The notes beneath the pieces are model-generated. The model made no database searches. It had not been told where the DNA came from and was given only the letters and a program-made list of their open reading frames with translations. Below, piece after piece: positions 7,261 to 27,195 of a stretch of 38,382 nucleotides of DNA (positions are counted from its first letter, which is position 1; every line of letters begins with the position of its first letter). The position numbers and the translations under genes were made by a program. Origin of the DNA: Lactiplantibacillus songbeiensis (GTDB lineage: Bacteria > Bacillota > Bacilli > Lactobacillales > Lactobacillaceae); contig NZ_BJDL01000005.1 of NCBI RefSeq assembly GCF_005405125.1, forward strand, positions 1 through 38,382, given 5' to 3'.

Positions 7261-7412
7261 TGATCAGTAGGTTCGCGGTGGGGCAGACCTGCAGCCAAAG
7301 GTCGGTCTGCAGGGCGCTTTTAAGCCGAAAGCCCCGTCTTAAAAGTCGGCCCAGCCACTAACCTGGGAATAACACCCAGCTAAGTGGCTCGACACGGCGA
7401 ACCTACTGATCA
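7261..7412 (+). repeat. Structured repeat, type B, full copy
   Basis: Closed by a perfect 16-bp inverted repeat (TGATCAGTAGGTTCGC at 7261-7276 with its complement at 7397-7412). Inside are three hairpins: CCTGCAG/CTGCAGG (7288-7313) around the loop CCAAAGGTCGGT, CTTTTAAG/CTTAAAAG (7317-7345), and AGCCACT/AGTGGCT (7353-7389). The core motif CGACAC lies at 7390-7395. It sits just after the glycosyltransferase operon and may also act as its transcript end. With the type A copy that follows, it fills the gap 7225-7682. Confidence 0.85.
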
Positions 7413-7483
7413 CTACGACTCTGATTGGTGGTTATAGGTTGAAAGATAGTCTAGTTATTAATTGTCTGTCCGTTAATTAACGT

Positions 7484-7632
7484 CGGGCGGGCCAGAATTG
7501 GCTCAGTGGTGTCGTTTATCTTGGTCGATGATTTTCCGACTTAGATAACCCCCGGCTTGTGGAAGACCGAACTTTGGCTTTCAAACGCGGCCACCACGTT
7601 CCAGCTGATTCTGGACCAACCAGAGTGGCAAT
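7484..7632 (-). repeat. Structured repeat, type A, copy 1
   Basis: This ~150-bp element begins CGGGCGGGCC and ends ACCAGAGTGGCAA on the plus strand. The core loop motif CCAAAGNNCGGT reads on the minus strand. Paired segments are CCAGAATTGGCT with AGCTGATTCTGG (outer stem), GTGGTG with CACCAC, and TTATCT with AGATAA. A hairpin surrounds the core loop (CCAAAGTTCGGT on minus). The inner hairpin is slightly imperfect in this copy. The nearest relatives are the copies at 17843, 18829 and 21650. Confidence 0.85.
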
Positions 7633-7682
7633 CAGTATTGGGTAAAACAGTAGATAAAGACGCAGTGGTTGACAGTGAGAGG

Positions 7683-7886
7683 ATGATTAAGTTGGTTTTA
7701 CTATCAATTTACGGTACCGTCAAAATGGCGACGCGGTTAGGAATTTACTTGATTCTAGGAACTTTAGTCGTGGTGATTCGACTACGCAATCGCAAGAAGT
7801 CGCGTAAAGAAATGGATAAAGATACCGAACGCTTGATGCGTAAAACGCCAAAAGATGCGAACGGTAAGTATCCTTGGGAACAATAA
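7683..7886 (+). CDS. Small single-span membrane protein
   Basis: A 67-aa protein. The start is ATG 7683 after GAGAGG; the open frame extends back to a TTG at 7557, but that codon lies inside the structured repeat. The N-terminal half is hydrophobic (about residues 4-33, one membrane segment). It is followed by a strongly basic patch (RLRNRKKSRKE) and a hydrophilic tail ending YPWEQ. The positive-inside rule puts the tail in the cytoplasm. I do not recognise the family. It is monocistronic, with a terminator right behind it. Confidence 0.65.
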   Translation: MIKLVLLSIYGTVKMATRLGIYLILGTLVVVIRLRNRKKSRKEMDKDTERLMRKTPKDANGKYPWEQ

Positions 7887-7896
7887 TTAAAAAATC

Positions 7897-7929
7897 AAAA
7901 CTCGTATCGGTAATTGATGCGAGTTTTTT
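7897..7929 (+). terminator. Rho-independent terminator
   Basis: AAAACTCG...(T)GCGAGTTTTTT hairpin with a U-tract, 10 bp after the small membrane protein gene. Confidence 0.85.
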
Positions 7930-7985
7930 GTTCAGTAAACTAAATTGTATTGGCGTGACAAAATTATAACGTTTATAAATTTTTG

Positions 7986-8049
7986 AACGATAGTAGCGTT
8001 AAATAATGCCTTAAAGTTGATTTCAATTGAACTGAAATCAACTTTTTTT
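7986..8049 (+). ncRNA. Possible small RNA ending in an orphan terminator
   Basis: A second strong terminator (AAAGTTGATTTCA / TGAAATCAACTTT with T7, 8013-8049) stands alone, 84 bp after the first one and with no gene in front of it. A weak promoter-like pair (TTGGCG at 7950, 18-nt spacer, TATAAA at 7974) would start transcription near 7986, giving an RNA of about 64 nt. It could equally be a leftover or a backup terminator. The rest of 8050-8172 shows nothing recognisable. Confidence 0.25.
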
Positions 8050-8172
8050 GTCGCTAATTAAACAATGAGCCACGCGGATTCTAGGACATTTACCTGACAG
8101 GCGCAATTAAAAAAGTCTTTCAAAGCTGGCATGGCTCGGTTAATAATAAATTTCGTCAAAAAGAACATACTG

Positions 8173-8192
8173 TGTACGACTTATAGGGTACA
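8173..8192. promoter_or_regulatory. Palindromic operator candidate before the YhgE-like gene
   Basis: The dyad TGTAC-N10-GTACA lies 21 bp before the start codon, where it would overlap the promoter or 5' leader. Genes of this family are often controlled by a TetR-type regulator, and a site like this would suit one. No regulator gene is adjacent, so the assignment is speculative. Confidence 0.3.
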
Positions 8193-8213
8193 TAGATTTT
8201 GGAGGGATTTAGA

Positions 8214-11200
8214 TTGAAAAAGCGAGTCATTATTGGGAGTGCGGTCGCGGCGATATTGATTGTGCCATTTATTGGGGCTGCCACTTTTGTCCGGTCGGTG
8301 TGGGATCCGTTTGGTCATGTGAATCAGTTACCAGTCGCAGTGGTCAATCAAGATGAGCCGGTCACTTATCAAGGTAAGGTGATGGCGGTTGGGGCGACGA
8401 TGACTAAACAGTTGCGGAAAAATCATGAGTTGGGCTGGCATATCGTTTCGGCGCAACAAGCCCGCGATGGGTTAGCACATAACAAGTATTATACCGTTGT
8501 CACAATTCCGAAAGATTTTTCCAAGCGGGCGACAACGGTGACGAGTGCCCAACCCAAACAGATGCGCCTGACCTATCAAACGAATGATTCGCTGAGTTAT
8601 ATTGGTGAAATCATTAGTCAGACTGGGGCCGATAAGCTAAATAGCGCCGTACGCGCGGCGGTCACGAAGGCCTATGCGTTGGCGACATTTAAGGAGATCA
8701 AACAAGCTGGTCAAGGTTATGCTAAAGCCGCAGATGGGGCGACTCAGTTAAAAGATGGAACCGTTAGCTTGCGGCATGGGTTAACTCAATATACGACAGG
8801 CGTTAAAACGTTGAAGAATGGTATTTTGACGCTGGATACGCAAGTACAAAAGTTACCAGCCGGTGTGACCCAATTGGCGAGCGGGTCCTTAGCATTAGCG
8901 ACTGGACTGAACACGCTGAATGGCAAAACTGGGCAATTAGCTGGTGGTGTGCAACAGTTAACGACTGGTTCTGGGCAACTGGCCAACGGATCGCAACAAG
9001 TGACAACCGGTCTGGGGACTTTGAAAGCTAAATCTGGCCAGTTAGCCCAAGGGGTTGGTCAATTAGCTAGTGGCACGACCCGTTTGGCGCCAGGATCACA
9101 ACAAGTCACGGCGGGCTTACAAACGCTGAATAGTCAAACCGGGGCTTTGGCAACGGGGGTCGGGCAACTCACCACCGGAGCTGGTCAAGTGAGTCAGGGA
9201 TTAACGACTTTACATGGTAAGACCGGGGCCTTGTCACAGGGTGTGATTCAGTTGGCGGATGGCAGTCAGGTCTTGGCCACCAAGCTAACCACTTATACCG
9301 ATGGGGTTTATACGGTTTCGCAAGGGTTAAAACAGCTTAATGGTCAGACTGGTGAGCTGGCTGATGGGGTTAAACAGCTGACAGTTGGGTCGCAGAGCTT
9401 GGCCGCTGGAGTGCAAGCATACACGACTGGCACGAGTCGAGCGAATCAAGGGGCACAAAAGTTAGAGACGGGATTGACCGCGTTAAATGGTCAGACCGGT
9501 CAACTTAAAACTGGCGTCGCGAGTCTGAGTCAAGGCAGTCAAGGTTTGGTTAGTGGGGCAACACAGTTAAAAGCTGGAAGTCAGCAAGTGACGACTGGCT
9601 TAGGTCAGCTAGCCACGGCAATCGCGGCCAAACAACCAGCATTAGCTAAGCTAACGACGGGCATGACTGGCATCGGTAGTGGCTTAACGGCTTTAAGTGA
9701 TGCGTTACAGCAAGTTAAGCCGGGGGTAGCGACTGGCGATGCCACTAAGACATTGACGAAAGTCCAGACTGACTTAAACGGCTTAACAACCACGACAACG
9801 AATTCAAGTGCTAGTCCGGTCGATGCCAAGATTGATCAAGTGGCTAGTACCCAGAAGTTAACACCAACGCAAACGGCGGCTTTAAAGACGGCCTTAGCGG
9901 GAGTGGGAGCAGCAACGACGAAAACGACAACGGTTGATCCGGCTGCGATGACGACGTTAAAAAATGATGTTGCAACGCTACGTGGTCAGTTGGATCGTTT
10001 AACAAGTGGGAATGATCTAAGTGCTTTGCAAACGCAAGCCCGTAACTTAAGTACCCAATTTGGGGTTGTTAATCAAGGCTTTGGATCGGTGACCGCAGCA
10101 ATCAAGACTGCTGGCACGAGTGCTGCTAGCTTGACTACCGGTTCACAAACGGTCACGAGTCAATTAGGCACGTTAGCCAATGGGGCGACGGCGTTAACTG
10201 CTGGCGCTAGTCAACTAAATGGTCAAGTGCCGAGCTTGGTCAGTGGCGTGGGTCAATTAGCGACTGGTGCCCATCAATTAGCCGGTGGAACCCAAACGTT
10301 AGTGACCAAAAGTGGACAACTAACCGGTGGGGCAAGTCAATTAACGGCTGGTTTAACTAACTTGAATGGCCAAGTGCCACGATTACGTTCTGCAGTTAGC
10401 CAATTATTTACCGGAGCGACGACTTTAGCCGCCAATAACGGGGCGTTACAAACTGGGACGCAACAATTGGCAACCGGGTTGCAACAGTTAAATGGACAGG
10501 TCCCAACGTTAGTGGCGGGCGTCAGCCGATTAGATACTGGTGCCCAACAAGTGAGTGGTGGTCTGACCCGGTTGTATGGTCAAGTACCTGCATTAACGGA
10601 TGGCGTCCAACAGCTAGCCACTGGTTCTAACCGTGTGACGGCTGGCTTGGTCCAAGTTAACGGTGGTTTGACTCAATTGAATGCCCAAGTCCCAGTCTTA
10701 GTCAGTGGTGTGGCACGATTATTCGCGGGTGCTGACCAAGTGTCGATGGGAGCGGGTCAATTACATCAAGGATTGGATCAACTAAACGGTCAAGTTCCAG
10801 CCTTAGTTAGTGGCGTTGGCCGTCTAGCTACGGGTAGTAATCAACTTCAAGCCGGTTTACAAACCTTAAACAGCAAGACGGGTGCCTTAACAAGTGGGGT
10901 CGGCCAATTGGCTAGTGGTGCCACGAAGCTAGACCATGCCTCAGATCAGTTGACGGCCGGTACAGGTAAGCTGACTGACGGCAATACCAAGTTAGCTAAA
11001 TCTTTACAAGGTGGCGCCAATCAGATTAACGCGGTGCCATTGACCAATCGGACCGCTAAGATGTTTGCTGAACCATCAACGTTAGCGCATGATAATTACA
11101 GTTATGTACCGAACTTTGGGCATTCTGTGGCGCCATTTGTGATTTCATTAGTTTCGTTTGTGGGTGTCACCTTGTTATTAGGTGTTTTTGATTATTTTGC

Positions 11201-11675
11201 GTTATTACGGACACCAAAGCAATTAGCTAGCTTGTTCGGACTGGTCGCACTGCAAGCCGGATTAACGAGTGGATTATTGCTGGCTGTTTTACTAAATGCG
11301 ACACATCCATGCCAATTCATATTAGTGGCTGTGTTGTTTTCAGAAGCAATCCTCGTGATTGAACTGGCGCTGAAAGTCACGTTAGGTCGCATAGCAGTCG
11401 CGGTTGTTGGGGTCTTATTATTCCTGCAAGTCTGTGTCTCGAATAACTTGTTCCCAGTTCAAACGGTCAAGACAGCGTATGCTGGGATCGCCACTTATTT
11501 ACCGATGACGTATTCTAATGCCGGTTTAGCGGAAGCATTGAGCGGGATTGGGCTAACGAGTACAACTGTCGTGCAAGGCTTGAGTGCGGTTGGCCTGATC
11601 TTCTTGATTGGTGGCGGTGTGATTGTTTTGAAATTGCGGGCTAAGCAGGCGGCGATGGTGGCCGATGGAGAGTAA
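8214..11675 (+). CDS. YhgE/Pip-family membrane protein with long heptad-repeat ectodomain
   Basis: A 1153-aa protein. The start is TTG 8214, eight bases after GGAGG (a TTG at 8199 would overlap the site itself). One N-terminal membrane segment (residues 5-24) is followed by the YhgE/Pip N-domain (VWDPFGHVNQLPVAVVNQDEPV). A very long external region has a seven-residue period (L-x-x-G-x-x-Q). Repeat blocks opening LNGKTG, LNGQTG or LNGQVP measure 28, 35, 42 or 49 residues, all multiples of seven. About five membrane segments close the protein from residue ~970. Members include lactococcal Pip (phage c2 infection protein), B. subtilis YhgE and the related type VII component EsaA. At about 1150 residues it is longer than most. 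A Thr/Lys-rich, repeat-poor island (about residues 500-610) splits the stalk into a TG-type and a QVP-type half. Function in this organism is unknown; phage receptor or secretion roles are possible. Confidence 0.85.
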   Translation: MKKRVIIGSAVAAILIVPFIGAATFVRSVWDPFGHVNQLPVAVVNQDEPVTYQGKVMAVGATMTKQLRKNHELGWHIVSAQQARDGLAHNKYYTVVTIPKDFSKRATTVTSAQPKQMRLTYQTNDSLSYIGEIISQTGADKLNSAVRAAVTKAYALATFKEIKQAGQGYAKAADGATQLKDGTVSLRHGLTQYTTGVKTLKNGILTLDTQVQKLPAGVTQLASGSLALATGLNTLNGKTGQLAGGVQQLTTGSGQLANGSQQVTTGLGTLKAKSGQLAQGVGQLASGTTRLAPGSQQVTAGLQTLNSQTGALATGVGQLTTGAGQVSQGLTTLHGKTGALSQGVIQLADGSQVLATKLTTYTDGVYTVSQGLKQLNGQTGELADGVKQLTVGSQSLAAGVQAYTTGTSRANQGAQKLETGLTALNGQTGQLKTGVASLSQGSQGLVSGATQLKAGSQQVTTGLGQLATAIAAKQPALAKLTTGMTGIGSGLTALSDALQQVKPGVATGDATKTLTKVQTDLNGLTTTTTNSSASPVDAKIDQVASTQKLTPTQTAALKTALAGVGAATTKTTTVDPAAMTTLKNDVATLRGQLDRLTSGNDLSALQTQARNLSTQFGVVNQGFGSVTAAIKTAGTSAASLTTGSQTVTSQLGTLANGATALTAGASQLNGQVPSLVSGVGQLATGAHQLAGGTQTLVTKSGQLTGGASQLTAGLTNLNGQVPRLRSAVSQLFTGATTLAANNGALQTGTQQLATGLQQLNGQVPTLVAGVSRLDTGAQQVSGGLTRLYGQVPALTDGVQQLATGSNRVTAGLVQVNGGLTQLNAQVPVLVSGVARLFAGADQVSMGAGQLHQGLDQLNGQVPALVSGVGRLATGSNQLQAGLQTLNSKTGALTSGVGQLASGATKLDHASDQLTAGTGKLTDGNTKLAKSLQGGANQINAVPLTNRTAKMFAEPSTLAHDNYSYVPNFGHSVAPFVISLVSFVGVTLLLGVFDYFALLRTPKQLASLFGLVALQAGLTSGLLLAVLLNATHPCQFILVAVLFSEAILVIELALKVTLGRIAVAVVGVLLFLQVCVSNNLFPVQTVKTAYAGIATYLPMTYSNAGLAEALSGIGLTSTTVVQGLSAVGLIFLIGGGVIVLKLRAKQAAMVADGE

Positions 11676-11795
11676 TTAGTGAGTAAAGTTTTAATTTTGT
11701 TTATTGACATTGTTGTGAGATGAGCGTATTGGTCGTTGGCCGATGAAACATCCGGTATACTTGAGCTAAAGGCAACTGAAGTGGAGGCGATGAGG

Positions 11796-11981
11796 ATGGT
11801 GAAAGACTTAATTCGGCAAGATGAACAGGGCATTTGGATTAGCCATGAGATTCTAGAAATGGTTGGTATTCAACTTGATCAGCCAGTCCAAATCAATACT
11901 CATCAAATTGCTGGTCAGCGCGTCTTAGTGTTACATGCTTCGAAACAACCAGTGTCGGAACCGAAGCCACGGGAAGTTTAA
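11796..11981 (+). CDS. AbrB/MazE-like small DNA-binding protein
   Basis: A 61-aa protein. Of the in-frame starts, ATG 11796 has the best distance (8 nt) from GGAGG at 11783; ATG 11790 is too close. The segment IWISHEILEMVGIQLDQPVQIN fits the swapped-hairpin SpoVT/AbrB fold (a pattern like v-I-P-k-e-i-l-e-k-l-g-i-q-x-D-x-V-x-I). Such proteins are antitoxins (MazE) or transition-state regulators. No toxin gene follows: the next gene is convergent and a terminator stands between. It is an orphan, so a regulator is as likely as an antitoxin. Confidence 0.6.
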   Translation: MVKDLIRQDEQGIWISHEILEMVGIQLDQPVQINTHQIAGQRVLVLHASKQPVSEPKPREV

Positions 11982-11993
11982 TTAAGGACAAAG

Positions 11994-12020
11994 AAAAACC
12001 GCGAGTAATCGCGGCTTTTT
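11994..12020. terminator. Bidirectional terminator
   Basis: AAAAACCGCGA-gtaa-TCGCGGCTTTTT lies between the convergent AbrB-like gene and glpF-like gene, with A- and T-runs on both sides. Confidence 0.85.
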
Positions 12021-12038
12021 GTCGTTTCTGAATAAATG

Positions 12039-14432: not shown

Positions 14433-14473
14433 TAACAATCGTTAAAAACAAATGAGAAAACAATTAAACGCAA

Positions 14474-14737
14474 TGATTAGGACAGTAGCTCTTAGTGAAT
14501 TTCTTCAGCGAGTCGTCGGGTGGTGCGAGACGATGAAATCACGAGTGGCGAACATCCCCTAATCACGGTAGGTACGAACTTTTGGGAGTATCTAATGGCG
14601 GCATCCATTATCTTGCTAGCGTATCGTATTAAGTTACTGTACGCGAATTAAGGCCATTTTTAGAATGGCAAAGCATAGGTGGTACCGTGGCGACGCCCTA
14701 TGGAAATCAAGCAATTGATTTCTGTAGGGCGTTTTTG
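14474..14737 (+). promoter_or_regulatory. T-box leader, probably isoleucine-specific
   Basis: The leader has all the expected parts. Stem I base is TGATTAGG (14474) paired with CCTAATCA (14558). The AGTA loop-E half is at 14484-14487 and GAA at 14550-14552. The T-box AGGTGGTACCGTGG is at 14677-14690. A terminator (ACGCCCTA...TAGGGCGT, T-run to 14737) competes with the antiterminator. By alignment with the known glyQS arrangement (GAA, one base, specifier, one base, stem) the specifier is ATC at 14554-14556, an Ile codon. Uncharged tRNA-Ile would then switch on the peptidase and oligopeptide-binding genes. Confidence 0.9.
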
Positions 14738-14762
14738 TTTTCTAAAATTTAGGAGGAATTTT

Positions 14763-15668
14763 ATGACAACAGGCACTCGGTTATTAACATTAAAGAACGG
14801 TTATCATTTATTTACGCGGACGGTCGGGCATGGGCCAGTCAAGTTATTATGTGTCCACGGTGGACCCGGTGGTACGCATGAAGAATTTGAAAATTTTGCG
14901 GCTGAACTTGGTGAAGATAAGGTTCAGGTCAGTATGTATGATCAATTAGGGTCGTTTTACTCAGATCAGCCGGATTTTACTAAGCCCGAGAATCAGCAAT
15001 ATTTGACCTTAGATTATTATTTATCTGAGTTAGAAGAAGTTCGCCAGCAGTTGGGATTAGACCAATTTTACTTGCTTGGGCACTCTTGGGGTGGCTTGTT
15101 GGCACAAGAATACGCCTTAAAATATGGCAAGCATCTCAAAGGCTTAGTCGTTATGAGTATGATTGACAATATCGCCGAATATACCGTTAATGTTAATGCA
15201 TTACGTGCACAGACTTTGACAGCGGATCAGGTCAGTTATATGCAAGGCGTGGAGCAAGCAGCAGCTTTCGATGATCCTGAATATCAAAAGCTAGTTGACG
15301 TTTTAAATCGCCACTTTGTTTGTCGGCAGCCCCAAGCGCACCCACGCCATCTTGTACCAACGATGGCTACGGCCGTTTATAACCATTTTCAAGGAAACAA
15401 TGAGTTTGTCATGGTGGGAACGCTGAATGGCTGGGATCGGCGGGCTGATTTACACCGAGTTACGGTGCCGACGCTACTCACATTTGGGGAATACGATACG
15501 ATGCCGTTACAAGCTGCGCGGCGTATGCAACAAACGTTGCCACACGCGCGCTTAGTCTTAACGCCGGATAGTGGGCATGGTCACAGTGTTGATAATCCGC
15601 GCGCGTTTTTCAAAACGCTCGGTCAGTATTTACACGATGTTGAGACAAATCAGTTTACGGCATATTAG
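14763..15668 (+). CDS. pepI: Prolyl aminopeptidase (proline iminopeptidase, S33)
   Basis: A 301-aa alpha/beta hydrolase that removes N-terminal proline from peptides in the cytoplasm (EC 3.4.11.5). The start is ATG 14763 after AGGAGG; the frame runs back into the T-box terminator and must not be extended. The oxyanion motif HGGPGG is near residue 38. The nucleophile is Ser108 in GHSWGG, the acid is probably Asp245 (GEYDTM), and the base is His272 or His274 in GHGHS. Length matches PepI (about 300 aa). It is the first gene after the T-box and lies 14 bp before the peptide-binding lipoprotein gene. Together they read as a peptide-scavenging unit induced by amino-acid (probably Ile) starvation. 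Confidence 0.9.
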   Translation: MTTGTRLLTLKNGYHLFTRTVGHGPVKLLCVHGGPGGTHEEFENFAAELGEDKVQVSMYDQLGSFYSDQPDFTKPENQQYLTLDYYLSELEEVRQQLGLDQFYLLGHSWGGLLAQEYALKYGKHLKGLVVMSMIDNIAEYTVNVNALRAQTLTADQVSYMQGVEQAAAFDDPEYQKLVDVLNRHFVCRQPQAHPRHLVPTMATAVYNHFQGNNEFVMVGTLNGWDRRADLHRVTVPTLLTFGEYDTMPLQAARRMQQTLPHARLVLTPDSGHGHSVDNPRAFFKTLGQYLHDVETNQFTAY

Positions 15669-17773: not shown

Positions 17774-17842
17774 GAGAAGTAATGCAGTTGTTATTGTTGG
17801 TATTGGTTGAGAATAGTAGTGATTAGCTAGCTTTCAAAATGC

Positions 17843-17990
17843 CGGGCGGGCCAGAATTGGCTCAGTGGTGTCGTTTGACTTAGCCGGTGATCTTCCGGGT
17901 TAGTCAAAGCCCGGCTTATGAGATCGTCCTGTGGCTCATAAACGCGGCCACCATGTTCCAGCCGCTTTTGGACCAACCAGAGTGGCAAGT
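17843..17990 (-). repeat. Structured repeat, type A, copy 2 (most diverged stems)
   Basis: The same outline as the copy at 7484 (CGGGCGGGCCAGAATTGGCT ... ACCAGAGTGGCAA). The inner stems have new sequence yet remain paired: TTTGACT (17874) with AGTCAAA (17902), and TTATGAG (17916) with CTCATAA (17935). In other copies these positions read TTTATCT/AGATAAA and TTGGAAG/CTTCCAA. The core loop is CCACAGGACGAT on minus, a diverged form. It lies between the HxlR terminator and the convergent SGNH gene. Confidence 0.85.
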
Positions 17991-18011: not shown

Positions 18012-18707
18012 TTATTTGCCATATTTCGCTAACACCGGACCCACCGTTGCAACATATTCACGTTCGCCCAGACTATTCGGATGTAAGTTGTCATCGACGA
18101 ACCAGTTCCGATTGTCTTGACTGACATAGAGCCAGTCGACTAAATGAACGTTGGCATATTGTTTGGCGGCCGCGGCAATTAGCTTGTTATTGCTAGCTTG
18201 CCAAGCTTTACCGGGTACCCGAGTATTCACCCAAAAGATCTGGTGTTGACTGCCGATTTGCTTGATAATGCCGTCAATGGTATCGGCGTCAGTTGGGCCA
18301 TTGGTACCTAAGTTAACCAGTACATTTTTAGCAATCGCGTCATTGCTTTTCAGTTGGGTAATAATGGCTGGAGCCGCGGCGACTTGCCGACCGACTTTGG
18401 CATTAGCATTGAAGCTACCGAAGACTTCTTTTAAGTCCGGTGTCGTGCGGACCATAATGGAATCTCCAATCCCCGTGACTTTTAAGTGCTTGAGGGTGGT
18501 GAGTTGCTGATCAGATAGTTGATATTTTTGCCCGAGTTTAGAATCAGCGACTGACCGGCTCGCTGATTTGGTAGTATGACCAGTCAATGTCTGGCCGATT
18601 TTAATGACTTGTTTTTGAATTGCCGGTGTTGGGATGATCAGCGCACCACCAATAAAAATAATGGCGAATAAGCCGACCAATCCATAGATTAATTTACGAT
18701 GTCGCAT
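18012..18707 (-). CDS. Membrane-anchored SGNH/GDSL hydrolase
   Basis: A 231-aa protein. The start is the ATG at 18707 (complement), eight bases after AAGGGGG; the frame runs further back without a site. One N-terminal membrane segment (residues 6-25) anchors an external domain. The catalytic blocks are G81-D82-S83 (TGIGDSIMV), NLGTNG with Asn136, and D206-x-x-H209 (DDNLHPN). It resembles the extracellular SGNH domain that follows the acyltransferase-3 channel in OatA-type peptidoglycan O-acetyltransferases, but here it is a separate protein. Its substrate is probably an acyl group on a wall polymer. It is monocistronic. Confidence 0.82.
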   Translation of the reverse strand: MRHRKLIYGLVGLFAIIFIGGALIIPTPAIQKQVIKIGQTLTGHTTKSASRSVADSKLGQKYQLSDQQLTTLKHLKVTGIGDSIMVRTTPDLKEVFGSFNANAKVGRQVAAAPAIITQLKSNDAIAKNVLVNLGTNGPTDADTIDGIIKQIGSQHQIFWVNTRVPGKAWQASNNKLIAAAAKQYANVHLVDWLYVSQDNRNWFVDDNLHPNSLGEREYVATVGPVLAKYGK

Positions 18708-18828
18708 CCCCGTAACCCCCTTGATTGCTACCAGACTAGTCCAGTGCCGTCCGCCTGTCAATCGTTTTTAGCGCTATACTACTCATATAACGAGTCATGG
18801 AGGTATGGTCTTGTGCTGGTTGGTTTAA

Positions 18829-18980
18829 ATTGTCACTCTGGTTGGGCCAGAATCGGCTGGAACGTGGTGGCCTCGTTTGGAAGCCAAAGAACGGTCTTCC
18901 AAGCCGGGCTTTATCTAAGTCGGAAAAGCACCGACCAAGATAAACGACACCACTGAGCCAATTCTGGCCCGCCCGGCGTT
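18829..18980 (+). repeat. Structured repeat, type A, copy 3
   Basis: An opposite-orientation copy whose core loop CCAAAGAACGGT reads on the plus strand (18884-18895) between TTGGAAG (18877) and CTTCCAA (18896). The second hairpin is TTTATCT (18910) with AGATAAA (18938), followed by the core motif CGACACCACTGAGC. The outer stem is CCAGAATCGGCT with GAGCCAATTCTGG. It lies in the gap between the SGNH and M20 genes; the rest of 18708-19077 contains the SGNH promoter area and a half-copy of type C. Confidence 0.85.
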
Positions 18981-19009
18981 AACTAACAAGGATTGATTAT
19001 TTTCAGTTC

Positions 19010-19037
19010 AGCATTTTAGGAACCAACCAACCGGCAG
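19010..19037 (+). repeat. Half-copy of structured repeat type C (right arm)
   Basis: AGCATTTTAGGAACCAACC and then CCGGCAGG match the closing arm of the type C copy at 21449. The rest of the element is missing, so this looks like a deletion remnant next to a type A copy. Confidence 0.65.
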
Positions 19038-19077
19038 GTAGCAGTTTTAACTAGCACCAAGCGTAAGGAGGAGTGGC

Positions 19078-20436
19078 ATGAATAACAAACAATTTATCAG
19101 TACTCATTTAGCTGAATTTGAGGCCCGACTGGCTCAGTTAGTCAGCTTGAAAACGGTGAGTGGCGACGTTAAGCAGTTGCAGTCGGGGGTGACCTACCTA
19201 GTCGATTGCTTTAAACAATTATTACAGGCGCAAGTCACGGTCGTTAAGACTGGCGGCGCACCGGCGATTGTGGCGCGAATTAATGGGACGAGTGATCAGA
19301 CCGTTTTGTTTTATGGGCATTATGACACGATGGCGCCTGGTGATCTAGCGGCATGGGCTAGTGAGCCATTCAAAATGACTAAAAGAGACGGCCGATTTTA
19401 CGGTCGCGGTATTGGAGATAATAAGGGGCAATTAATGGCTCAGATTTTAGGCGTGTATACGTATCTCCAGACCCACGAGCAACTCCCACTTAACGTGATT
19501 TTTATGGTGGAAGGTGAAGAAGAACAAGGTAGTGTGCATTTAGCAGCGACGGTGGCGCAACTCAAGTCAACGTTGTTAGCGGCAGTGGACTTAGCAGTCG
19601 TGATTGATGGGTCGATGAGTCAATCGGGCCAACACGTTTTACGGTTAGGTAATCGCGGGTTGTTTGGCTTTGAGCTGACGGCATTGACGGGGACGGTGGA
19701 TAATCATTCCGGCAATGCCGGAAACATCATGCCGAACGCGGCAGTGTTTTTGAACCAATTATTAGACCGGTTAGTGCAACATGGTCAAGTTCAATTGCCA
19801 CACTTTTACGACGGGGTCCCAACCGATGCGGAGATCCCGTGGGACTTGATTGACGCGTTGCCGTTTGATGCCGAAGCAATTGCGACTCAGTTCGGCTTAT
19901 CACAAGTACCAACGAAACGCGATTATTATCGGCGACTGATGTTTCGGCCAACGTTTAATCTCAATAGTTATCAAGCTGGTGCAACTGGATCGGGGTTTAA
20001 AACAATTATTCCGCATGCCGCAACGGCGAAAATTGACTGCCGCTTAGTTGGGCAACAGTCAATTCCGGCGATTGAAGCGGACTTACGCCAGGCACTAGCC
20101 CCAGAACTTGCGAGTGGTCAAGTCAAACTCGTTATTCGTGGACGGATTCCCGTTAGTGTGACAACCTTACCCGCAGCTAAGATTCAAGCGCTGGCGGCGA
20201 TGATTAAGCGGGCAACGGGGGCGGTGGTGATTGAGCCGATGATGCCGGGCACCGTGCCGAACTATGTCTGGACAGATATCTTAAAGGTGCCAGTGGTGAC
20301 AATTCCGTATGCCAACTTTGACCAGCACAATCACGCGCCCAACGAGAATCTGACTGAGGCTGCTTTTCAAACGGGTATTCAAGTGGCAGCCGAATTAGTC
20401 GGTCACTTGCAAACAGTCATTGGAAAAACTAGCTAA
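19078..20436 (+). CDS. M20-family metallopeptidase (dipeptidase/deacylase)
   Basis: A 452-aa protein, ATG 19078 after AAGGAGG. The two-zinc M20 site is complete: His81 (FYGHYDT), Asp114 (GIGDNKG, bridging), Glu147 as base and Glu148 as ligand (MVEGEEEQGS), Asp177 (VIDGS) and a late His in QHNHAPNEN. A lid/dimerisation domain is inserted in the middle (about residues 195-330). There is no signal peptide, so it is cytoplasmic. Family members cleave dipeptides or N-acyl amino acids; the length and the NRGLFGFEL segment resemble the CNDP/DapE-like dipeptidases. The following transporter gene is only 44 bp away and probably co-transcribed, so uptake or export of a related metabolite is possible. 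Confidence 0.88.
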   Translation: MNNKQFISTHLAEFEARLAQLVSLKTVSGDVKQLQSGVTYLVDCFKQLLQAQVTVVKTGGAPAIVARINGTSDQTVLFYGHYDTMAPGDLAAWASEPFKMTKRDGRFYGRGIGDNKGQLMAQILGVYTYLQTHEQLPLNVIFMVEGEEEQGSVHLAATVAQLKSTLLAAVDLAVVIDGSMSQSGQHVLRLGNRGLFGFELTALTGTVDNHSGNAGNIMPNAAVFLNQLLDRLVQHGQVQLPHFYDGVPTDAEIPWDLIDALPFDAEAIATQFGLSQVPTKRDYYRRLMFRPTFNLNSYQAGATGSGFKTIIPHAATAKIDCRLVGQQSIPAIEADLRQALAPELASGQVKLVIRGRIPVSVTTLPAAKIQALAAMIKRATGAVVIEPMMPGTVPNYVWTDILKVPVVTIPYANFDQHNHAPNENLTEAAFQTGIQVAAELVGHLQTVIGKTS

Positions 20437-20480
20437 GCTTGTTAGACTGGAATCAAGCTTAGAAAACGGGAGGGAGTCAT

Positions 20481-21383
20481 ATGCAAAAGAAGACGGTCGG
20501 GCTAATTCTCGCCAGTGTGGGACCGTTTCTCTGGGGGAGTTCCGGGACAGTGGCCCAACATTTATTTGAAACGACATCGATTGAAACCATGTGGTTGGTT
20601 TCGCTACGGATGTTAGTTTCCGGGACCTTGCTGATTGGCTATGGATTAGTGACGCGTGCGCCGGTATTTGAAGTGTTTCATCATCCGCGAGCTACGGTCA
20701 AGTTAGTTGCGTTTAGCTTACTCGGTATGGCATCGGTACAGCTGACTTATTTTATGGCGATTAGTACGGGGAATGCGGCCACGGCGGCAATCTTACAGTT
20801 CTTGTCACCGGTTATTATAATTATCTATTTGTCGATTTTGAGTTTCAGTTGGCCCAGTAAAATTGATGTTATTTCAGTCATTTCGGCAATCCTAGGCACT
20901 ATTTTAATCGTGACGGAAGGTCATTTAAATTCATTAGCTTTGCCGGTTGCGGCGGTCGTGTGGGGGTTGTTAGCCGCAGTCGGAGCGGCGGTCTACACGT
21001 TGATGCCGCAACAATTGTTAAAGCGGTATGGGGCGATCCCAATTGTCGGTTGGTCGATGCTAATCGGTGGTTTAATGGTCTGTGTCGCGACCCGAGCGTG
21101 GCAACATTGGCCGCAATTAAGCGGGCCTGCTTGGTTGGAAGTTGGCTTCGTCGTCATCTTTGGGACAATGTTAGCCTACTTATTCTTCCTCCAAAGCCTT
21201 GAATCCGTGCTACCAACGACGGCTAGCGTGCTAGGGGCGATTGAACCGCTGGCCGCTACAATTTTAAGTGTGCTATTTTTAAACGTCAGCTTTAACGGTT
21301 ACGGTATTATCGGGGCCATATTAATTGTTGGCGTTACGTTCTTGCAATTTATCTCCGCACGCGATGCCATGATGACACCGTAG
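20481..21383 (+). CDS. EamA/DMT-family transporter
   Basis: A 300-aa protein, ATG 20481 after GGGAGGGAG. It has about ten membrane segments in two EamA halves (start GLILASVGPFLWGSSGTVAQ; second half from about residue 150). The motif NAATAAILQFLSPVIIIIY in segments 3-4 and LESVLPTTASVLGAIEPLAA in the second half are typical. Members export amino acids or other small metabolites. The substrate cannot be told. It is probably in one transcript with the M20 peptidase. Confidence 0.9.
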   Translation: MQKKTVGLILASVGPFLWGSSGTVAQHLFETTSIETMWLVSLRMLVSGTLLIGYGLVTRAPVFEVFHHPRATVKLVAFSLLGMASVQLTYFMAISTGNAATAAILQFLSPVIIIIYLSILSFSWPSKIDVISVISAILGTILIVTEGHLNSLALPVAAVVWGLLAAVGAAVYTLMPQQLLKRYGAIPIVGWSMLIGGLMVCVATRAWQHWPQLSGPAWLEVGFVVIFGTMLAYLFFLQSLESVLPTTASVLGAIEPLAATILSVLFLNVSFNGYGIIGAILIVGVTFLQFISARDAMMTP

Positions 21384-21386
21384 TGC

Positions 21387-21416
21387 TTGACGTCAACTCA
21401 ATTGGGTTGGCGTTTT
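21387..21416 (+). terminator. Weak terminator
   Basis: TGACGTCAACTC-aatt-GGGTTGGCGTTTT hairpin with short T-run right after the EamA gene. Confidence 0.45.
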
Positions 21417-21448
21417 AGTTTGTAGGGTTAATATTGTTACTTTGTTCC

Positions 21449-21596
21449 GCCCGCCGGTTGGTTTCTAAAATGCTGGAATGCTGTGGACCATTTTGAAGCC
21501 AAAGAGCGGTCTTCAAAACTGACCTTGGCCTTAAGTCCGAGCAGACCACTCGCACTAAGGCCAACGACACGGCTGAGCATTTTAGGAACCAATCTA
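21449..21596 (+). repeat. Structured repeat, type C, full copy
   Basis: The outer arms are TTGGTTTCTAAAATGCT (21458-21474) and AGCATTTTAGGAACCAA (21576-21592), 17 bp with one G-T pair. The first hairpin TTTTGAAG/CTTCAAAA (21491-21518) carries the core loop CCAAAGAGCGGT. The second is TTGGCCTTA/TAAGGCCAA (21525-21564). The motif CGACACGGCTGAGC leads into the closing arm. The plan is the same as types A and B, with different stem sequences. Confidence 0.85.
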
Positions 21597-21649
21597 TCAG
21601 CTAAATTGACTGAATTGAAAATACTCAATCGTTAACTTTTTAACTCCCG

Positions 21650-21812
21650 TTAGTTAACGACGGGCGGTCCAGAATTGGCTCAGTGGTGTCGTTTATCTTG
21701 GTCGGTGATTTTCCGACTTAGATAAAGCCCGGCTTGGAAGACCGACCTTTGGCTTCCAAACGCGGCCACCACGATCCAGCCGGTTCTGGGCCAACCAGAG
21801 TGACAATTTAAA
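21650..21812 (-). repeat. Structured repeat, type A, copy 4
   Basis: This copy starts about 55 bp after the type C element. It includes the left flank GTTAGTTAACG that is also present at the copies at 7484 and 18829. Paired segments are CCAGAATTGGCT/AGCCGGTTCTGG, GTGGTG/CACCAC, TTTATCT/AGATAAA and TTGGAAG/CTTCCAA, with core loop CCAAAGGTCGGT on minus. Together, types C and A fill the gap 21427-21812. Confidence 0.88.
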
Positions 21813-21814
21813 CC

Positions 21815-21868
21815 AACTAAATAGCTGTTCAGAAATCATTGTGCAATTTCTGAGCAGCTATTTAGTTT
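21815..21868. terminator. Long bidirectional terminator hairpin
   Basis: Arms AACTAAATAGCTG...TCAGAAAT and ATTTCTGA...CAGCTATTTAGTTT pair over about 21 bp around an 8-9 nt loop. It ends the minus-strand glycosyltransferase operon and may also protect from read-through on the plus strand. Confidence 0.8.
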
Positions 21869-21894
21869 ATCCAGATGAACATTATGACCATTTT

Positions 21895-23817
21895 CTACGG
21901 TAAGGCTAAGTAAAGCTTAGGTTGCCGTTTCTTCTTAGTCGGTTGTTTTTTAACCGGAGTGAGCTTGGCCGCACTCGGTGAGAGCCGTTGTAGCCCAGTC
22001 TTCGTAACCTTAAAGAACCCAGTCCGGACGCCTTTTTGGTGATAGGCGTGTTGCATCATGACGGTAAAGGTATGGTGATATTCCGGAATCGCCACGTAAC
22101 GGTAATGTTGCAGGCCTTGCCGGAATTGTTGTGGTGTTTCCATAAAGTTTTCTTGCGCGGTCGCGTGGTTGGTAAAGAAGTAGTAATGTGCCACGAACCC
22201 AGCATAGTAGCTGTCAACATCGCCAGCGTGCGGATCGACGATTAAAATCTTGGTTCGGTTGTAATGCGTCCACGGTTGCGCAATCCGTTTGAATTGTTGC
22301 GGAATCGTGTTGCGGTTATAACGATTGGCGAAGTTCGTCCCGTTAATTTCTGAGAGCATCATAATGATTGAAAAAATCAACAGAATAAAGGTCGACATTT
22401 GATAAAAGTTCTTGGTAAAGATGGAGCGAAACGTCCGCAAGTCGCGTTTTTCAAAGCGCTGCTCGTATAAACCAATATCCATAGCACGGACGAGCATAAT
22501 TGCGCCAATCAGTAAGTTCAAAATAACGGTACTGGACATGTAGCGCTCATAGCCATCCAAAACGATGGCTTCAGCATAAGGCATCGATAGGGCGTACATC
22601 CCGAATAGGCTGCCAAAGTAGGTGATAAAGATGACGTCAATGATGACGAGCATTTTCAACAAGTTAGTCTGTTTATGGCTGCCTATGCGAATTAAGCCCC
22701 AAGCAATCAGCAAGGTGATGTTGATCAAAATAATCCCTTGCACGGAGAGTGAATTCAAGTTCAGCAGTTGATTGACCATCTTGTGCCCAACTTTAAGAAT
22801 CTTCGTGGTGCCTTCGGTATTAAGTTGCTGGCTATAAGCTTTGGCACTGATTTCATGTTTAGAAACAGTGAATGTTTGATGAACATGACGTTCCCACCAC
22901 ATGAATGGCAGGGCGCCTAAGCCAATGGTCCCTAGCCAACGATAAGCAATCCGCCAAGTTCGCTGTAAACGCGACCCTTGGGTGTATTTAATTAAGGTGT
23001 AGAGCAAGTAAATCGCGATAATGACCACGAAAAACGTCGCTGAATTTTTAACTAATAGTAACCCGGCGACAAAGATCGCCGTATGCGCCGCCAGCAGGCC
23101 GGGATGTTTTCGATAAACGTAAATCCCGACCAGCGCGGCAATCGTCAAAATAGGCAACACGTAATCAACTAACAAGTTATTCAACCGAATGGCGATGTTA
23201 AAGACATACGTCACTGCCAGGGTGAAGCATAACGTTAACGACATGAGGGCGCGTGTCCGATCGCGCAACGCCCCGAAAATCGCATAGGACGCCGCCCAGA
23301 TCAGAATGAATTGGCCCACCAGCATCGTGCCATCACTGAATTTCGTTAAGGAAACAAAGTCGGTGATAAAGAGGGCGGTAGCGGGCGGATATGATGTAAA
23401 TGAAATAATCGCATCACGAGCGCCGGGCAAGCGGCCTTCAAATGTTAAAAATTTAACGATAACCGCCCAGTGCGAGAAGTTGTCGTAATGAATGAGCGGA
23501 CTATGATATAAGACATCCGCCATCGCGAGACCGAGCGCAATCATCCATAAGTCAAAAGTATGCAACCCTTCAAATTTGAGCCGGCCTTTTCCCATGAAGC
23601 CCAGCACAAACCGAATCCCAAATAAGATGATACCCAGTCCAGTTACAATCCAGATGCCCCACCGTAGTAGCTGCAGCATTGCAAAAGCATACAGTAATAG
23701 AATCTGGACTAAAATCGCGGTAATCCACGCTAGATAAGGACTAATCCCTAAGTAGCGCAGGGTCCCATCGTAGCCAATCAACGCAACAATAAAAATAATT
23801 AAACCTAACCAAGCCAT
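21895..23817 (-). CDS. Polytopic GT-C-like glycosyltransferase (exopolysaccharide module 1)
   Basis: A 640-aa protein, ATG 23817 (complement) after GGGGG. About 12-13 membrane segments fill residues 1-510, and a soluble C-terminal domain of about 120 residues follows (TKILIVDPHAGDVDSYYAG). The first large external loop has LIHYDNFSHWAVIVKF and then FTSYPPATALF, which resembles the acidic/His catalytic loop of GT-C enzymes that use lipid-linked sugars. The tail after residue 605 is very basic (KKQPTKKKRQPK). The gene follows a BcsA-like synthase by 56 bp. Its paralogue at 27224-29278 sits next to another BcsA-like synthase, so the pairing is conserved. It may modify, polymerise or help export the polymer; the GT-C assignment is from motif style only. 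Confidence 0.72.
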   Translation of the reverse strand: MAWLGLIIFIVALIGYDGTLRYLGISPYLAWITAILVQILLLYAFAMLQLLRWGIWIVTGLGIILFGIRFVLGFMGKGRLKFEGLHTFDLWMIALGLAMADVLYHSPLIHYDNFSHWAVIVKFLTFEGRLPGARDAIISFTSYPPATALFITDFVSLTKFSDGTMLVGQFILIWAASYAIFGALRDRTRALMSLTLCFTLAVTYVFNIAIRLNNLLVDYVLPILTIAALVGIYVYRKHPGLLAAHTAIFVAGLLLVKNSATFFVVIIAIYLLYTLIKYTQGSRLQRTWRIAYRWLGTIGLGALPFMWWERHVHQTFTVSKHEISAKAYSQQLNTEGTTKILKVGHKMVNQLLNLNSLSVQGIILINITLLIAWGLIRIGSHKQTNLLKMLVIIDVIFITYFGSLFGMYALSMPYAEAIVLDGYERYMSSTVILNLLIGAIMLVRAMDIGLYEQRFEKRDLRTFRSIFTKNFYQMSTFILLIFSIIMMLSEINGTNFANRYNRNTIPQQFKRIAQPWTHYNRTKILIVDPHAGDVDSYYAGFVAHYYFFTNHATAQENFMETPQQFRQGLQHYRYVAIPEYHHTFTVMMQHAYHQKGVRTGFFKVTKTGLQRLSPSAAKLTPVKKQPTKKKRQPKLYLALP

Positions 23818-23873
23818 AAAGTGCCCCCATCTAACTAGTCATTAAGCCTGTGAATTGCCCATCAAACTAAACA

Positions 23874-25850
23874 TCAAAACCGAGTTAGTCGACTGACCCG
23901 CCGTTCTAACTTCTGTAAGCGAATCATCACGTTGGTGTAAAGCTCATCGAATGGTGAGATCCACGTGTCTTGCGTCAGTGGTAAAGTGTCATTGAACCCA
24001 TTGTAAATGAGTTGTAAATAATGATTGCGGTCATCGCCATTGGGAACCGTCAATTGCACACTATAGGCGAAGTCGGCATTGTAGTGGCTGACCCGCATAA
24101 TCTTACCCGTTAAGTTCACGTACTGCCCATGTGACGGTAGTCGTAGTTTGACCGTCTGACCTTGTAAGAGTTGTGAATGTTCCAAGTCGCGGGTGTCACC
24201 GCTGAGGCGAAATGAGAGTCCTCCTTCAGACGCGTCATTGGTGCGCATATCTTGCCAACTGTTACCTAGCCAGATATCGCCATCAATTTGACGGGAGAAA
24301 CGTTCCGTTTTACGGTACACTGGTCGGCCCATCGCAATGAACAGACAGAAGCTTAAGTTGATAAAGTGCATCAATAACCAGAACGTGATGACACTCCCAA
24401 TCAGAATTTCGGAGCCAAACTTACCATAGTTGAACTTGACGATCGCAATTAAGGTGACTAGCCAGAGTGAAAAGTACGGCAAGATGTACAGCTTATCAAT
24501 AATTGAGAAAGTCACGTTTTTTTCGGTCACTTTGAACTTCTTCGCCTTAACACCCAGTGTTTCTAAAATAACTGGAATGAATAAGTAGGGCGCAAAGAAG
24601 GTTTCTTGAATTTCACCCCAACGTTCGTTCCGAATCGAATCGGATGTATCTTTTAAGACGTAATGCAGTAAGAAGTACCCTGGCGCCCAGACAATCATCA
24701 GAATCCAAAAGTTTGCCATGACAACTTGAATCTTAAAGAGTGCGTAAAGAATTGGCGCAATAATGTAAATGATTCGTCGAGCAAAGGACCACCAATATAA
24801 GTACGTGTTGATCAGAATCAGGCGGTTTTTCCAGCCGAGTTTCGGGTTAATAAAGATATGCAAGTTGCGGCAACTTTGAATAACGCCGCGGGCCCAACGT
24901 GTCCGTTGCTTGATGACGCCTTTTAAGTCGATCGGGGTAATCCCACTAGACTGTGGTTGTGCCGTTGCCAGACTGATGTAGCCTGCCATGTTGATCTCAG
25001 TTCCCAGTTCGAAGTCTTCCGTCAAGGTGTCGGTTGGAAACCCACCGACTTTATCGACGACTTCGCGTAAGAATAACGCGTTGGAACCGGTGAACAGTGC
25101 CGTATCATTACTCCCATTTAAGACGTTCACATCACGGGAGAAGAAGTCTTGTTCGTTCGGTACGATTTTTTCAGAGAATAAGTTAAATTGAAAGATATCG
25201 GCGTTATAGAAACTCTGAGGCGTCTGAACGAAGCCCAGTGGTTTCACATCTTGGTCGTCGTCGGCTAATTGTTTAAAGTTTTCAATAAATAACGGTACGG
25301 TGTCTTTTAGAAAGCCGGAAAAGGGAATCATATCAGTATCGAAAATCGCAAATAATGGCGAGTGTAAGAACTGTAACGTATGGTTGATATTGCCGGCCTT
25401 GGCATCGTGATTATCATCCATTCCAAAATATTGGGCATGGTATTCAGCTGCTAAGGCTTTAACCTCGGGCCGATTGCTGTCATCTGAAATCACGATATGC
25501 ACCTTATGCGGGTCGGGATAGTCGATGAAAGTGGCCGCATTGACTGTCTTGCGGAGCAATTCAACGTCTTCGTTATGGGTCACGATAATAATATCAACGT
25601 CCGGTAATGGTTGCGTGTGATCGTAGTCCGGAATCTTTAAGTTGAGCTTGTTCTTAAATGCCAGCATCCGAAAGAAGATTAAGATGAAGGCGGTTAAGTT
25701 CGACATGATTTCACTACCGACCAGAAGTAAGGCAAAAATCAAGACAAAAAGACCTGCGTGCCAGGGTATCGTAAAAACGACTCGCCAAATTAAGTAAATG
25801 ACTGAGAGGACGATCGCTAAAACGTAGGTAATTTTTTTAATGATGGACAT
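23874..25850 (-). CDS. BcsA-like processive beta-glycosyltransferase with PilZ domain (module 1)
   Basis: A 658-aa protein. The start is ATG 25850 (complement), overlapping the previous gene by 14 bp, with GAAGGA upstream, so translation is probably coupled. Two N-terminal membrane segments precede a GT2 domain with the cellulose-synthase signature: DD 123-124, DTD 171-173, TED 277-279 and Q315-R-T-R-W319, plus VQTPQSFYN as in BcsA. More membrane segments follow (about 345-505). The C-terminal PilZ domain keeps both c-di-GMP motifs: R513-K-T-E-R517 and D-A-S-E-G-G (539-544). The protein should build and extrude a beta-linked polysaccharide, activated by c-di-GMP. No BcsB, PgaB or diguanylate cyclase gene is near. 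Confidence 0.88.
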   Translation of the reverse strand: MSIIKKITYVLAIVLSVIYLIWRVVFTIPWHAGLFVLIFALLLVGSEIMSNLTAFILIFFRMLAFKNKLNLKIPDYDHTQPLPDVDIIIVTHNEDVELLRKTVNAATFIDYPDPHKVHIVISDDSNRPEVKALAAEYHAQYFGMDDNHDAKAGNINHTLQFLHSPLFAIFDTDMIPFSGFLKDTVPLFIENFKQLADDDQDVKPLGFVQTPQSFYNADIFQFNLFSEKIVPNEQDFFSRDVNVLNGSNDTALFTGSNALFLREVVDKVGGFPTDTLTEDFELGTEINMAGYISLATAQPQSSGITPIDLKGVIKQRTRWARGVIQSCRNLHIFINPKLGWKNRLILINTYLYWWSFARRIIYIIAPILYALFKIQVVMANFWILMIVWAPGYFLLHYVLKDTSDSIRNERWGEIQETFFAPYLFIPVILETLGVKAKKFKVTEKNVTFSIIDKLYILPYFSLWLVTLIAIVKFNYGKFGSEILIGSVITFWLLMHFINLSFCLFIAMGRPVYRKTERFSRQIDGDIWLGNSWQDMRTNDASEGGLSFRLSGDTRDLEHSQLLQGQTVKLRLPSHGQYVNLTGKIMRVSHYNADFAYSVQLTVPNGDDRNHYLQLIYNGFNDTLPLTQDTWISPFDELYTNVMIRLQKLERRVSRLTRF

Positions 25851-26922
25851 GTGATGGCGTTCCTTCTTTGAAAATAAAATCGCGTTGAATTTGATAACTG
25901 ATAATAAATAAGATAAAGTCAACGATCATCTTGGCTAAAGTCGGCATCCATTGTCCGCTAGTCGTAGGCAGTGCCCAGGTCAACAGGTTGGTCAAATAAC
26001 CCGAGGCAAACATCTGCACTAAAAAGAGCAGGCCATACTTGATCAAGGTCTGATGACCAGCATGATCGAAGACCAGATGATGATTGATCAAGTAGTTAGC
26101 GATGGACGACAAGACCCGCGAAATGACCGTGGCAATCAGGATACTGTTGAGTACGTGATTACCGATCAAAGAGATGACCAAGTAGAACAAGCTGATATCA
26201 ATTAAGAATGAGGCCAGCCCACTGGCAGCAAACTTAAAGAAGCGCGAGTAAATCGCGATTGAGTCACGGATGACGCGAAAGTGCGATGATTTATTCCCAT
26301 CTAAGTAAATCGTGGGAATTGGGGCTTCAGTCACTTTGACATCATATTTGCGCGCTTCCAGTAACATATCGAATTCAAATTCAAACCGGTCACCCGGAAA
26401 GTTGACTAATTGCTGGGCGTAGGTCATTGGAATGACCCGCAAGCCGGTCTGTGTATCGGAGATCGATTGATGCGTCAACAGGTGCACCAAACTACTCGTC
26501 AACAAGTTACCAAAGCGACTGCGAAACGGAATGGTTTCTGTAAATTGCCGGACGCCGATGACCAAGTCGTGCGGGGTCTGTGCGAACTGTTGTAGACAAT
26601 GTTGCAGCGCGGCGACGGTGTGTTGGCCATCGGAATCCATCGTGGCAATCCCGGTCAGTTGCGGCAGTTGGCGCTGACAGTAGTCAAAGCCAGTCTTTAA
26701 AGCCGCGCCTTTACCACGATTCTGCGGGTGGTGCAGAATATGTAAACGTGAATCAGTTAGTGTCCCCAATTGCGTAAAGATGGGTTGATGCTGTGCATCG
26801 CTGCCATCATCGACCACAATAATGGCGGTGATGGGTGCGGTGATCGTAATAAGTTCATTCATAAGTTTTATTAATTTATTATCCGGATTAAGTGCCGGAA
26901 TTAGTACTCCGATGGCGGCCAT
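25837..26922 (-). CDS. Polyprenyl-phosphate glycosyltransferase fused to GtrA-like flippase
   Basis: A 361-aa protein, ATG 26922 (complement). Residues 1 to about 225 form a DPM1/GtrB-like GT2 domain (VVDDGSDA, NRGKGAALKTGF, ATMDSDGQH with the D-x-D type metal site, DTQTGLRVIP). Residues about 228-350 form a four-segment GtrA domain (FFKFAASGLASFLIDISLFY). It should make undecaprenyl-phosphate-sugar and help flip it outward. That is the donor type GT-C enzymes need, which fits the polytopic protein two genes downstream. The three genes form one minus-strand operon. A promoter is likely just upstream, where ATTATA at 26979-26984 reads TATAAT on the minus strand. Confidence 0.85.
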   Translation of the reverse strand: MAAIGVLIPALNPDNKLIKLMNELITITAPITAIIVVDDGSDAQHQPIFTQLGTLTDSRLHILHHPQNRGKGAALKTGFDYCQRQLPQLTGIATMDSDGQHTVAALQHCLQQFAQTPHDLVIGVRQFTETIPFRSRFGNLLTSSLVHLLTHQSISDTQTGLRVIPMTYAQQLVNFPGDRFEFEFDMLLEARKYDVKVTEAPIPTIYLDGNKSSHFRVIRDSIAIYSRFFKFAASGLASFLIDISLFYLVISLIGNHVLNSILIATVISRVLSSIANYLINHHLVFDHAGHQTLIKYGLLFLVQMFASGYLTNLLTWALPTTSGQWMPTLAKMIVDFILFIISYQIQRDFIFKEGTPSHVHH

Positions 26923-27089
26923 TGTCGTTACCCCTTTTGTTTAATATACCTAAATAATGTTAACGATATATCAATTTAATTATAACATTGATTTGCTTAA
27001 ACTTAACAGTTCATTCTGATGATGTCAGTTAACTATTTTGTTCCTCCAGTATTGGCGGAACAGTTGAGACATGCTGGTTGATTAGCCGT

Positions 27090-27195
27090 CTTCGTTGACC
27101 AGTCAGTTCGCGGTGGGGCAGCCCTGCAGCCCAAAGGCGGTCTGCAGGGCGCTTTTGAGCCGAAGCCACGTCTCAAAAGTTGTCCCAGCCACTGC
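27090..27195 (+). repeat. Structured repeat, type B, truncated copy
   Basis: Matches 7261-7359 up to the AGCCACT segment and then stops. CCTGCAG/CTGCAGG (27123-27148) encloses CCCAAAGGCGGT. The next hairpin is CTTTTGAG/CTCAAAAG (27152-27179); the copy at 7317 has CTTTTAAG/CTTAAAAG, a paired change on both arms. It lies in the gap 26923-27223 between the two exopolysaccharide modules. Confidence 0.82.

Follow-up and report, generated by a model that had tools for sequence, protein, structure and literature searches.

The described systems that come closest to the repeats reported here are the miniature inverted-repeat transposable elements (MITEs), for which AT-richness is called typical (PMC10969869), the BOX elements of Streptococcus pneumoniae, and the REPINs. 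BOX elements are modular, structured and MITE-like, with inverted ends and target duplications; 125 were counted in one genome, and they are transcribed (PMC3049150). REPINs are presented as extragenic doublets in inverted order, separated by a spacer, with a 'clover' fold and compensatory changes (PMC3116915). Our repeats come from a window of 38,382 nucleotides (the whole stretch of DNA analysed: contig NZ_BJDL01000005.1 of Lactiplantibacillus songbeiensis, positions 1 to 38,382), in which a first-pass annotation had described seven structured intergenic repeats of types A, B and C. We read them as local members of a Lactobacillaceae-wide set of non-autonomous, MITE-like mobile elements whose folded arms help them to spread, a reading to which we assign a probability of roughly 0.5.

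The annotation had taken the single repeat as the unit. The unit proves to be a pair of converging arms, and the elements made of types A and C carry inverted ends of their own besides. A sequence-only search (nhmmer) over a 1.22 Mb sample of the same genome, whose contigs came from hit lists, recovered 259 arms (163 A and 96 C); if the sample is typical this extrapolates to about 640 per genome, which may be high given how the contigs were drawn. Neighbouring arms within 700 bp in this sample were arranged (+,-) in 87 cases, (-,+) in one and on the same strand in 16, some of which we read as pieces of one broken arm. We also built a covariance model, R1, from 17 A and C arms; its E-values are rough, and over the own genome it scored at least 150 matches. 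Pairing was analysed in 419 kb with 91 of 136 R1 matches, after exclusion of weak matches, of duplicates on the opposite strand and of two matches truncated by the end of a locus, and this gave 37 pairs of neighbours in plus-then-minus order, of which 22 are 41–52 bases apart. B and D arms likewise form pairs, with A arms or among themselves. Beyond this species, loci of a genus inferred to be Levilactobacillus (g16) and of L. wangkuiensis contain 12 pairs within 700 bp that converge and a single pair (L224) on one strand, and a second arm was present at 10 of 20 loci picked around R1 matches in 19 other genomes of the family, convergent in all 10. Single-armed elements in g16 were considered and rejected, since convergent pairs occur there; some g16 arms nearly match arms in L. 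wangkuiensis records. In this genus, the L. dongliensis locus L078 has a type A arm, and two arms on the same strand lie near each other there.

The A/C elements are mobile. An inverted end, ACGCTTGGTGCTAGTT, stands beside 152 of the 259 arms when up to four errors are allowed, and elements bounded by such ends (n = 45) measure 166–420 bp, with 42 of them between 310 and 410 bp. Target duplications, defined as flush direct repeats with a score of at least 5, flank 22 of these 45 elements, compared with 0.4% of controls in which the left flank of one element was joined to the right flank of another. Their lengths are 8 (n = 7), 9 (n = 7), 7 (n = 3) and 10 (n = 2), with one each of 6, 11 and 12, so that 14 of the 22 are 8–9 bp long. 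One element, L264:17198, is absent at the same place in the sister species G004, where a single ACTTATTTC is found instead of two and the flanks are 88–90% identical between the two species. A 99% identical copy of this element sits elsewhere in G004 with its own 8-bp duplication, ATTCTAGT, and another insertion is common to both species at 97% identity; at least one copy therefore looks recent and one predates the species split. The first-pass annotation had left a mobile element and a structured RNA family side by side as possibilities; the duplications and this clean empty site, of the kind it had proposed to seek in sister strains, now show mobility. It had also allowed that the stems might simply be terminal repeats, which is not so in the A/C elements, where the terminal repeats lie outside the stems. 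The elements are short and non-coding and have terminal inverted repeats and target duplications, as MITEs do; they are not AT-rich (GC is 0.449 in the genome sample and 0.476 over 70 A/C elements, flanks included), a trait that is typical of MITEs and not defining.

Each arm spans about 150 nt, its outer stem leading into a junction from which two hairpins project; two hairpins had been described for all types, which holds for A and C, whereas type B folds with three. Covariation was assessed over 134 matches from 56 loci (120 distinct), against shuffled and slid controls, with rows that include opposite-strand matches of some arms. Two-sided change was seen in 45 of 45 pairs, that is at every modelled stem position, with 1212 cells compared with 358 after shuffling (none of 500 shuffles as high), and the covariation score was 0.545, against 0.147 shuffled and at most 0.133 after sliding partners by one to three columns. 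The alignment was fitted to R1 and hence leans to structure; arms of g16 and of other genera had no part in building the model, and in the examples printed they take the same fold by energy alone. Stem alleles are also plentiful within a single genome, where 146 A and 49 C arms of the 259 were used for allele counts: among the 146 A arms one hairpin 1 pair reads CG in 53, TA in 41 and GC in 32, and one hairpin 2 pair reads AT in 103, GC in 30, CG in 6 and TA in 4. That all types form one superfamily with a fold preserved through compensatory change is thus borne out. This suggests a requirement for the fold as such, perhaps in the spreading of the elements. The 12-nt loop, CCAAAGNNCGGT, had been taken as a fixed core, and this does not hold family-wide, since the arms of other genera fold alike around different loops: among 26 arms drawn from several genera, CCAAAGNNCGGT is not retained, while CTGGAACG, CTGAGC, AGC..GTCT and TAA are each kept at 85% or more. 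In passing, breakage is commoner among C than among A arms: a length and score filter was passed by 49 of 96 C arms and by 146 of 163 A arms.

The abundance of copies and of stem alleles lets the family show directly which strand and which positions of the fold are kept. A change from C-G to T-A passes via C.A or T.G, and an A.C on one strand is a G.T on the other, so that wobble intermediates carry strand information. On the strand that the first-pass annotation had called the right one, intermediates at covarying pairs were A.C 80 and G.T 24 (28 pairs, 71 distinct rows out of the first 81 of the 134), and in a second set of 52 rows (47 distinct), mostly from outside this genus and with four loci from other species of it, A.C 78 and G.T 40 (38 pairs). 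RNA folding energy, compared for 135 A and 48 C arms, was lower on the opposite strand in 102 of the A arms (31 the reverse) and in 44 of the C arms (3 the reverse). Taken together, wobble bias and folding energies make the outward strand the likelier one to fold: the folded strand is probably the one that runs outward from the element centre, which is also the strand with its 3' end at each terminus, and the orientation chosen at first was probably the wrong one. RNA and single-stranded DNA are indistinguishable by the wobble test.

Two-sided change could also arise with the fold under no selection, if template switching during replication corrected imperfect palindromes and so altered both sides of a stem. 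Stem changes do come as blocks affecting both sides, some genera (L341) have the TAA/TAA internal loop closed to a perfect stem, and hairpins are frequently deleted, in some cases between short AACG repeats around them (by eye), which suggests that hairpins form in DNA. Such correction would erase internal loops, yet the GGAAC/TG loop made by CTGGAACG and CTGAGC is among the features kept at 85% or more in the 26 arms, and a one-strand wobble bias in covarying pairs is not expected from it. We regard template switching as an improbable source of the pattern.

How the arms might help MITE-like elements to spread can be sketched as follows. Each element presents two convergent arms of about 150 nt, with short inverted ends outside the arms in A/C elements, and the inverted placement leaves one arm in folding orientation whichever strand is transcribed or single-stranded. 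The folded arms would act in cis, and a folded arm, as single-stranded DNA or RNA, may be recognised by a transposase or host factor supplied in trans. Shortened copies are consistent with a need for the arms: of 70 A/C elements, 20 fall below 370 bases with flanks and count as shortened; 15 of the 20 have an intact element as nearest neighbour, which is about the chance level, most junctions differ from one another by eye, and among the 70 we saw no shortened family that had been amplified. This suggests, without proving it, that intact arms are needed for spread. More tentatively, the arms may define a family-wide mobile class that inserts in a DDE-like manner, with inverted ends and target duplications, and yet depends on one folded junction arm per end, as RNA or single-stranded DNA of the outward strand, the inverted pair giving a signal independent of orientation. 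If the fold is needed for spread, structure at the level of a strand would be joined to ordinary duplication-forming transposition.

The arm pairs are inverted doublets of palindromic units, as REPINs are, and the spacer, the compensatory changes and the 'clover' fold given for REPINs would fit a giant relative of theirs, moved as single-stranded DNA by a Y1 (IS200/RAYT-like) transposase. Insertion of IS200-like elements leaves no target duplication, and the duplications found here, with an empty site that keeps one copy, do not fit such insertion. Y1 transposases were found in only 6 of 13 genomes, an R1 match stood at none of the 11 Y1 loci, and the arm-rich G004 had no Y1. A relationship of this kind is very improbable. 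At the 24 IS256 and ISL3 loci in relatives (the search covered six genomes) no ACGCTTGGTGCTAGTT-like end was present at up to three mismatches (four loci had a single one at four) and no arm core. A self-comparison of the 1.22 Mb (85% identity, at least 450 bases) returned only a tandem array of the window; this is a long array of 18-base repeats at 1–1781, with 91 overlapping 300-nt copies listed and positions 1–623 recurring at 1159–1781 with 86% identity. Pairs with long gaps were considered as autonomous copies and rejected, the 1456-base gap in L192 containing a gene read as prs by eye. Elsewhere, a small open reading frame (ORF) lies between two convergent arms at L347 457–789 (G063, genus g5) and is RelB/DinJ antitoxin-like by eye, with no Pfam match. 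In L348 and L349 (G302, genus g21) the spacers are 72% identical over 293 columns with no convincing ORF; the elements have the ends GCTTGTGTCCAGC, and CGCTTG is shared with the A/C ends in one of them.

Another explanation gives the fold to the host: a beneficial structured RNA, such as an attenuator, an mRNA 3' end or a processing site, would have been distributed by a mobile element, and host selection would keep its fold in transcripts. The wobble pattern of one strand is what RNA would leave, and pneumococcal BOX repeats are transcribed (PMC3049150). Gene context argues the other way. Among 81 composites, 37 lie between unidirectional, 19 between convergent and 17 between divergent genes, with 8 at locus edges, against 396, 145 and 134 intergenic regions by crude ORF calls, and there is no clear preference. 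Unpaired arms would be sense in transcripts in 12 cases and antisense in 10, the intact arm of a pair is the proximal or the distal one about equally often, and at least one insertion differs between sister species. The absence of a clear bias in context or direction argues against a fixed host role, and a terminator or gene-end role was rejected on this ground; we consider host-selected RNA unlikely. The earlier description of the repeats as non-coding and without a fixed orientation to genes agrees with these counts: within crude ORF calls there were none of the 81 composites and 3 of 45 unpaired long arms.

Several observations weigh against mobile elements spread with the help of their arms. 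Duplication length varies from 6 to 12 bp, and 23 of the 45 elements have none at the score threshold. Types B and D are without the A/C ends (by eye), so that mobility by that route is shown for A/C elements only. Among DDE types, the search for a transposase in this genome (G000) and in G004 took in IS256 (PF00872) and ISL3 (PF01610) and found no match, with six small contigs read as N. The deletions may simply postdate the last burst of transposition, and in three deletion copies the junction is the same and falls at a short direct repeat, although the three are not each other's nearest neighbours. Finally, the wobble counts are not independent, and the bias is weaker over all pairs (A.C 104, G.T 70), because pairs without covariation show the opposite tendency (24 to 46), for which a single T.G pair that hardly varies in type A is mainly responsible; over all pairs of the A arms alone the counts are A.C 148 and G.T 87.

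All seven repeats of the first-pass annotation (four A, one C and two B) were located by R1 at their places and follow one common plan. A type B arm at 7255..7424 (+), with an outer stem and three hairpins by folding (39.3 bits), is the left arm of a convergent pair whose right partner, after a gap of 52 bases, is a type A arm at 7477..7625 (-; 142.9 bits). The type A arm at 17836..17982 (-; 135.6 bits) has no partner found and carries the TTTGACT/AGTCAAA and TTATGAG/CTCATAA alleles; these and the other stem swaps quoted at first are present in the folded copies. A further type A arm, at 18836..18982 (+; 172.4 bits), is a left arm, and as its right partner we read the outer end of a C arm at 19025..19065 (-), which has lost its hairpins by eye and retains the inverted end ACGCTTGGTGCTAGTT (inverted repeat I5; end sequence at 19064 minus). 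The type C arm at 21452..21602 (+; 125.7 bits) is the left arm of a pair completed, after a gap of 51, by a type A arm at 21654..21800 (-; 164.8 bits). The last of the seven, at 27097..27212 (+), is a truncated type B arm recognised by its fold and by an R1 score of only 18.9 bits (E 0.0012).

The claim that every copy has CCAAAGNNCGGT and CGACAC is slightly overstated: the exact loop is present in 5 of the 7, the A arm at 17836 has CCACAGGACGAT in its place, and the B piece at 27097 is without CGACAC and its final hairpin. Chance is excluded for the combination of loop and CGACAC: the window contains it 4 times, where 100 shuffles gave 0.00, and the whole genome 84 times, with 0 for the reversed pattern. 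A sixth exact CCAAAGNNCGGT match in the window, at 11108(-), is probably due to chance; it falls inside a long ORF (8199–11675, +) with many LxxGxxQLxxG-like repeats. A partial C copy had been overlooked: the left end of a C arm at 27361..27445 (+; nhmmer 27383–27445, 50 bits; repeat I5 27361–27401), within the 3' end of a membrane-protein-like ORF on the minus strand (27224–29278). The last residues of this protein are probably read from the repeat; the arms touch coding sequence too, one window copy being the end of this ORF. The window also holds a T-box leader at 14464–14703 (+; 93.8 bits), at the 5' end of an alpha/beta-hydrolase-like ORF (14679–15668).

The Infernal search of Lactobacillaceae proposed with the first description, run with the program's stricter filters, gave R1 matches with an E-value of at most 1e-6 for 79 of 301 genomes and 13 of 40 genera, some with only a single weak match; outside the family, the 248 genomes of the phylum searched under the same filters gave none. 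The family, to which bacteria of food and of the gut belong, thus has matches in 13 of the 40 genera sampled. Within the genus, 19 of 21 genomes, the own included, had R1 matches at E up to 0.001. A pattern scan of genome contigs gave 111 stretches, mostly chance in other bacteria, with true arms in L. wangkuiensis and L. dongliensis records, and the one A arm tried had no match in plasmid and phage collections. The comparison with Rfam, also suggested at the outset, turned up no family at any arm: Rfam 15 had no match over an intact arm at gathering scores (the window and 7 loci of 20 kb), at E up to 10 (window 18700–21900) or at E up to 1 (11 other loci), and one chance-level match (E 6.7) overlapped the C remnant at 19025. 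No description of the arm family was found in the literature, most subscription journals being outside the coverage.

Set beside the known systems, the elements share with prokaryotic MITEs such as QMITE2, Nezha and RUP that they are short, non-coding, intergenic and present in many copies, with inverted ends and target duplications. They differ in having two large arms with an inner junction that covary across genera, in not being AT-rich, and in that no partner transposase was found among the IS256, ISL3 and Y1 types. In BOX elements, compared by description, the ends pair within one fold, whereas here two facing arms fold separately. The likeness to REPINs lies in inverted doublets with a spacer, compensatory changes and extragenic placement; a REPIN unit rests on 16-mers spaced about 71 bp from each other and is tied to a RAYT, whereas the present elements have inverted ends and target duplications, their arms measure about 150 nt, and no link to a Y1 gene was found. 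Integron attC sites also conserve their structure as their stems vary, and work as folded single-stranded DNA. By analogy, the arms, in which structure is kept while stems vary, may resemble them. By anatomy, then, we read the family as a MITE-like superfamily, with which MITEs, BOX elements and REPINs share features only in part.

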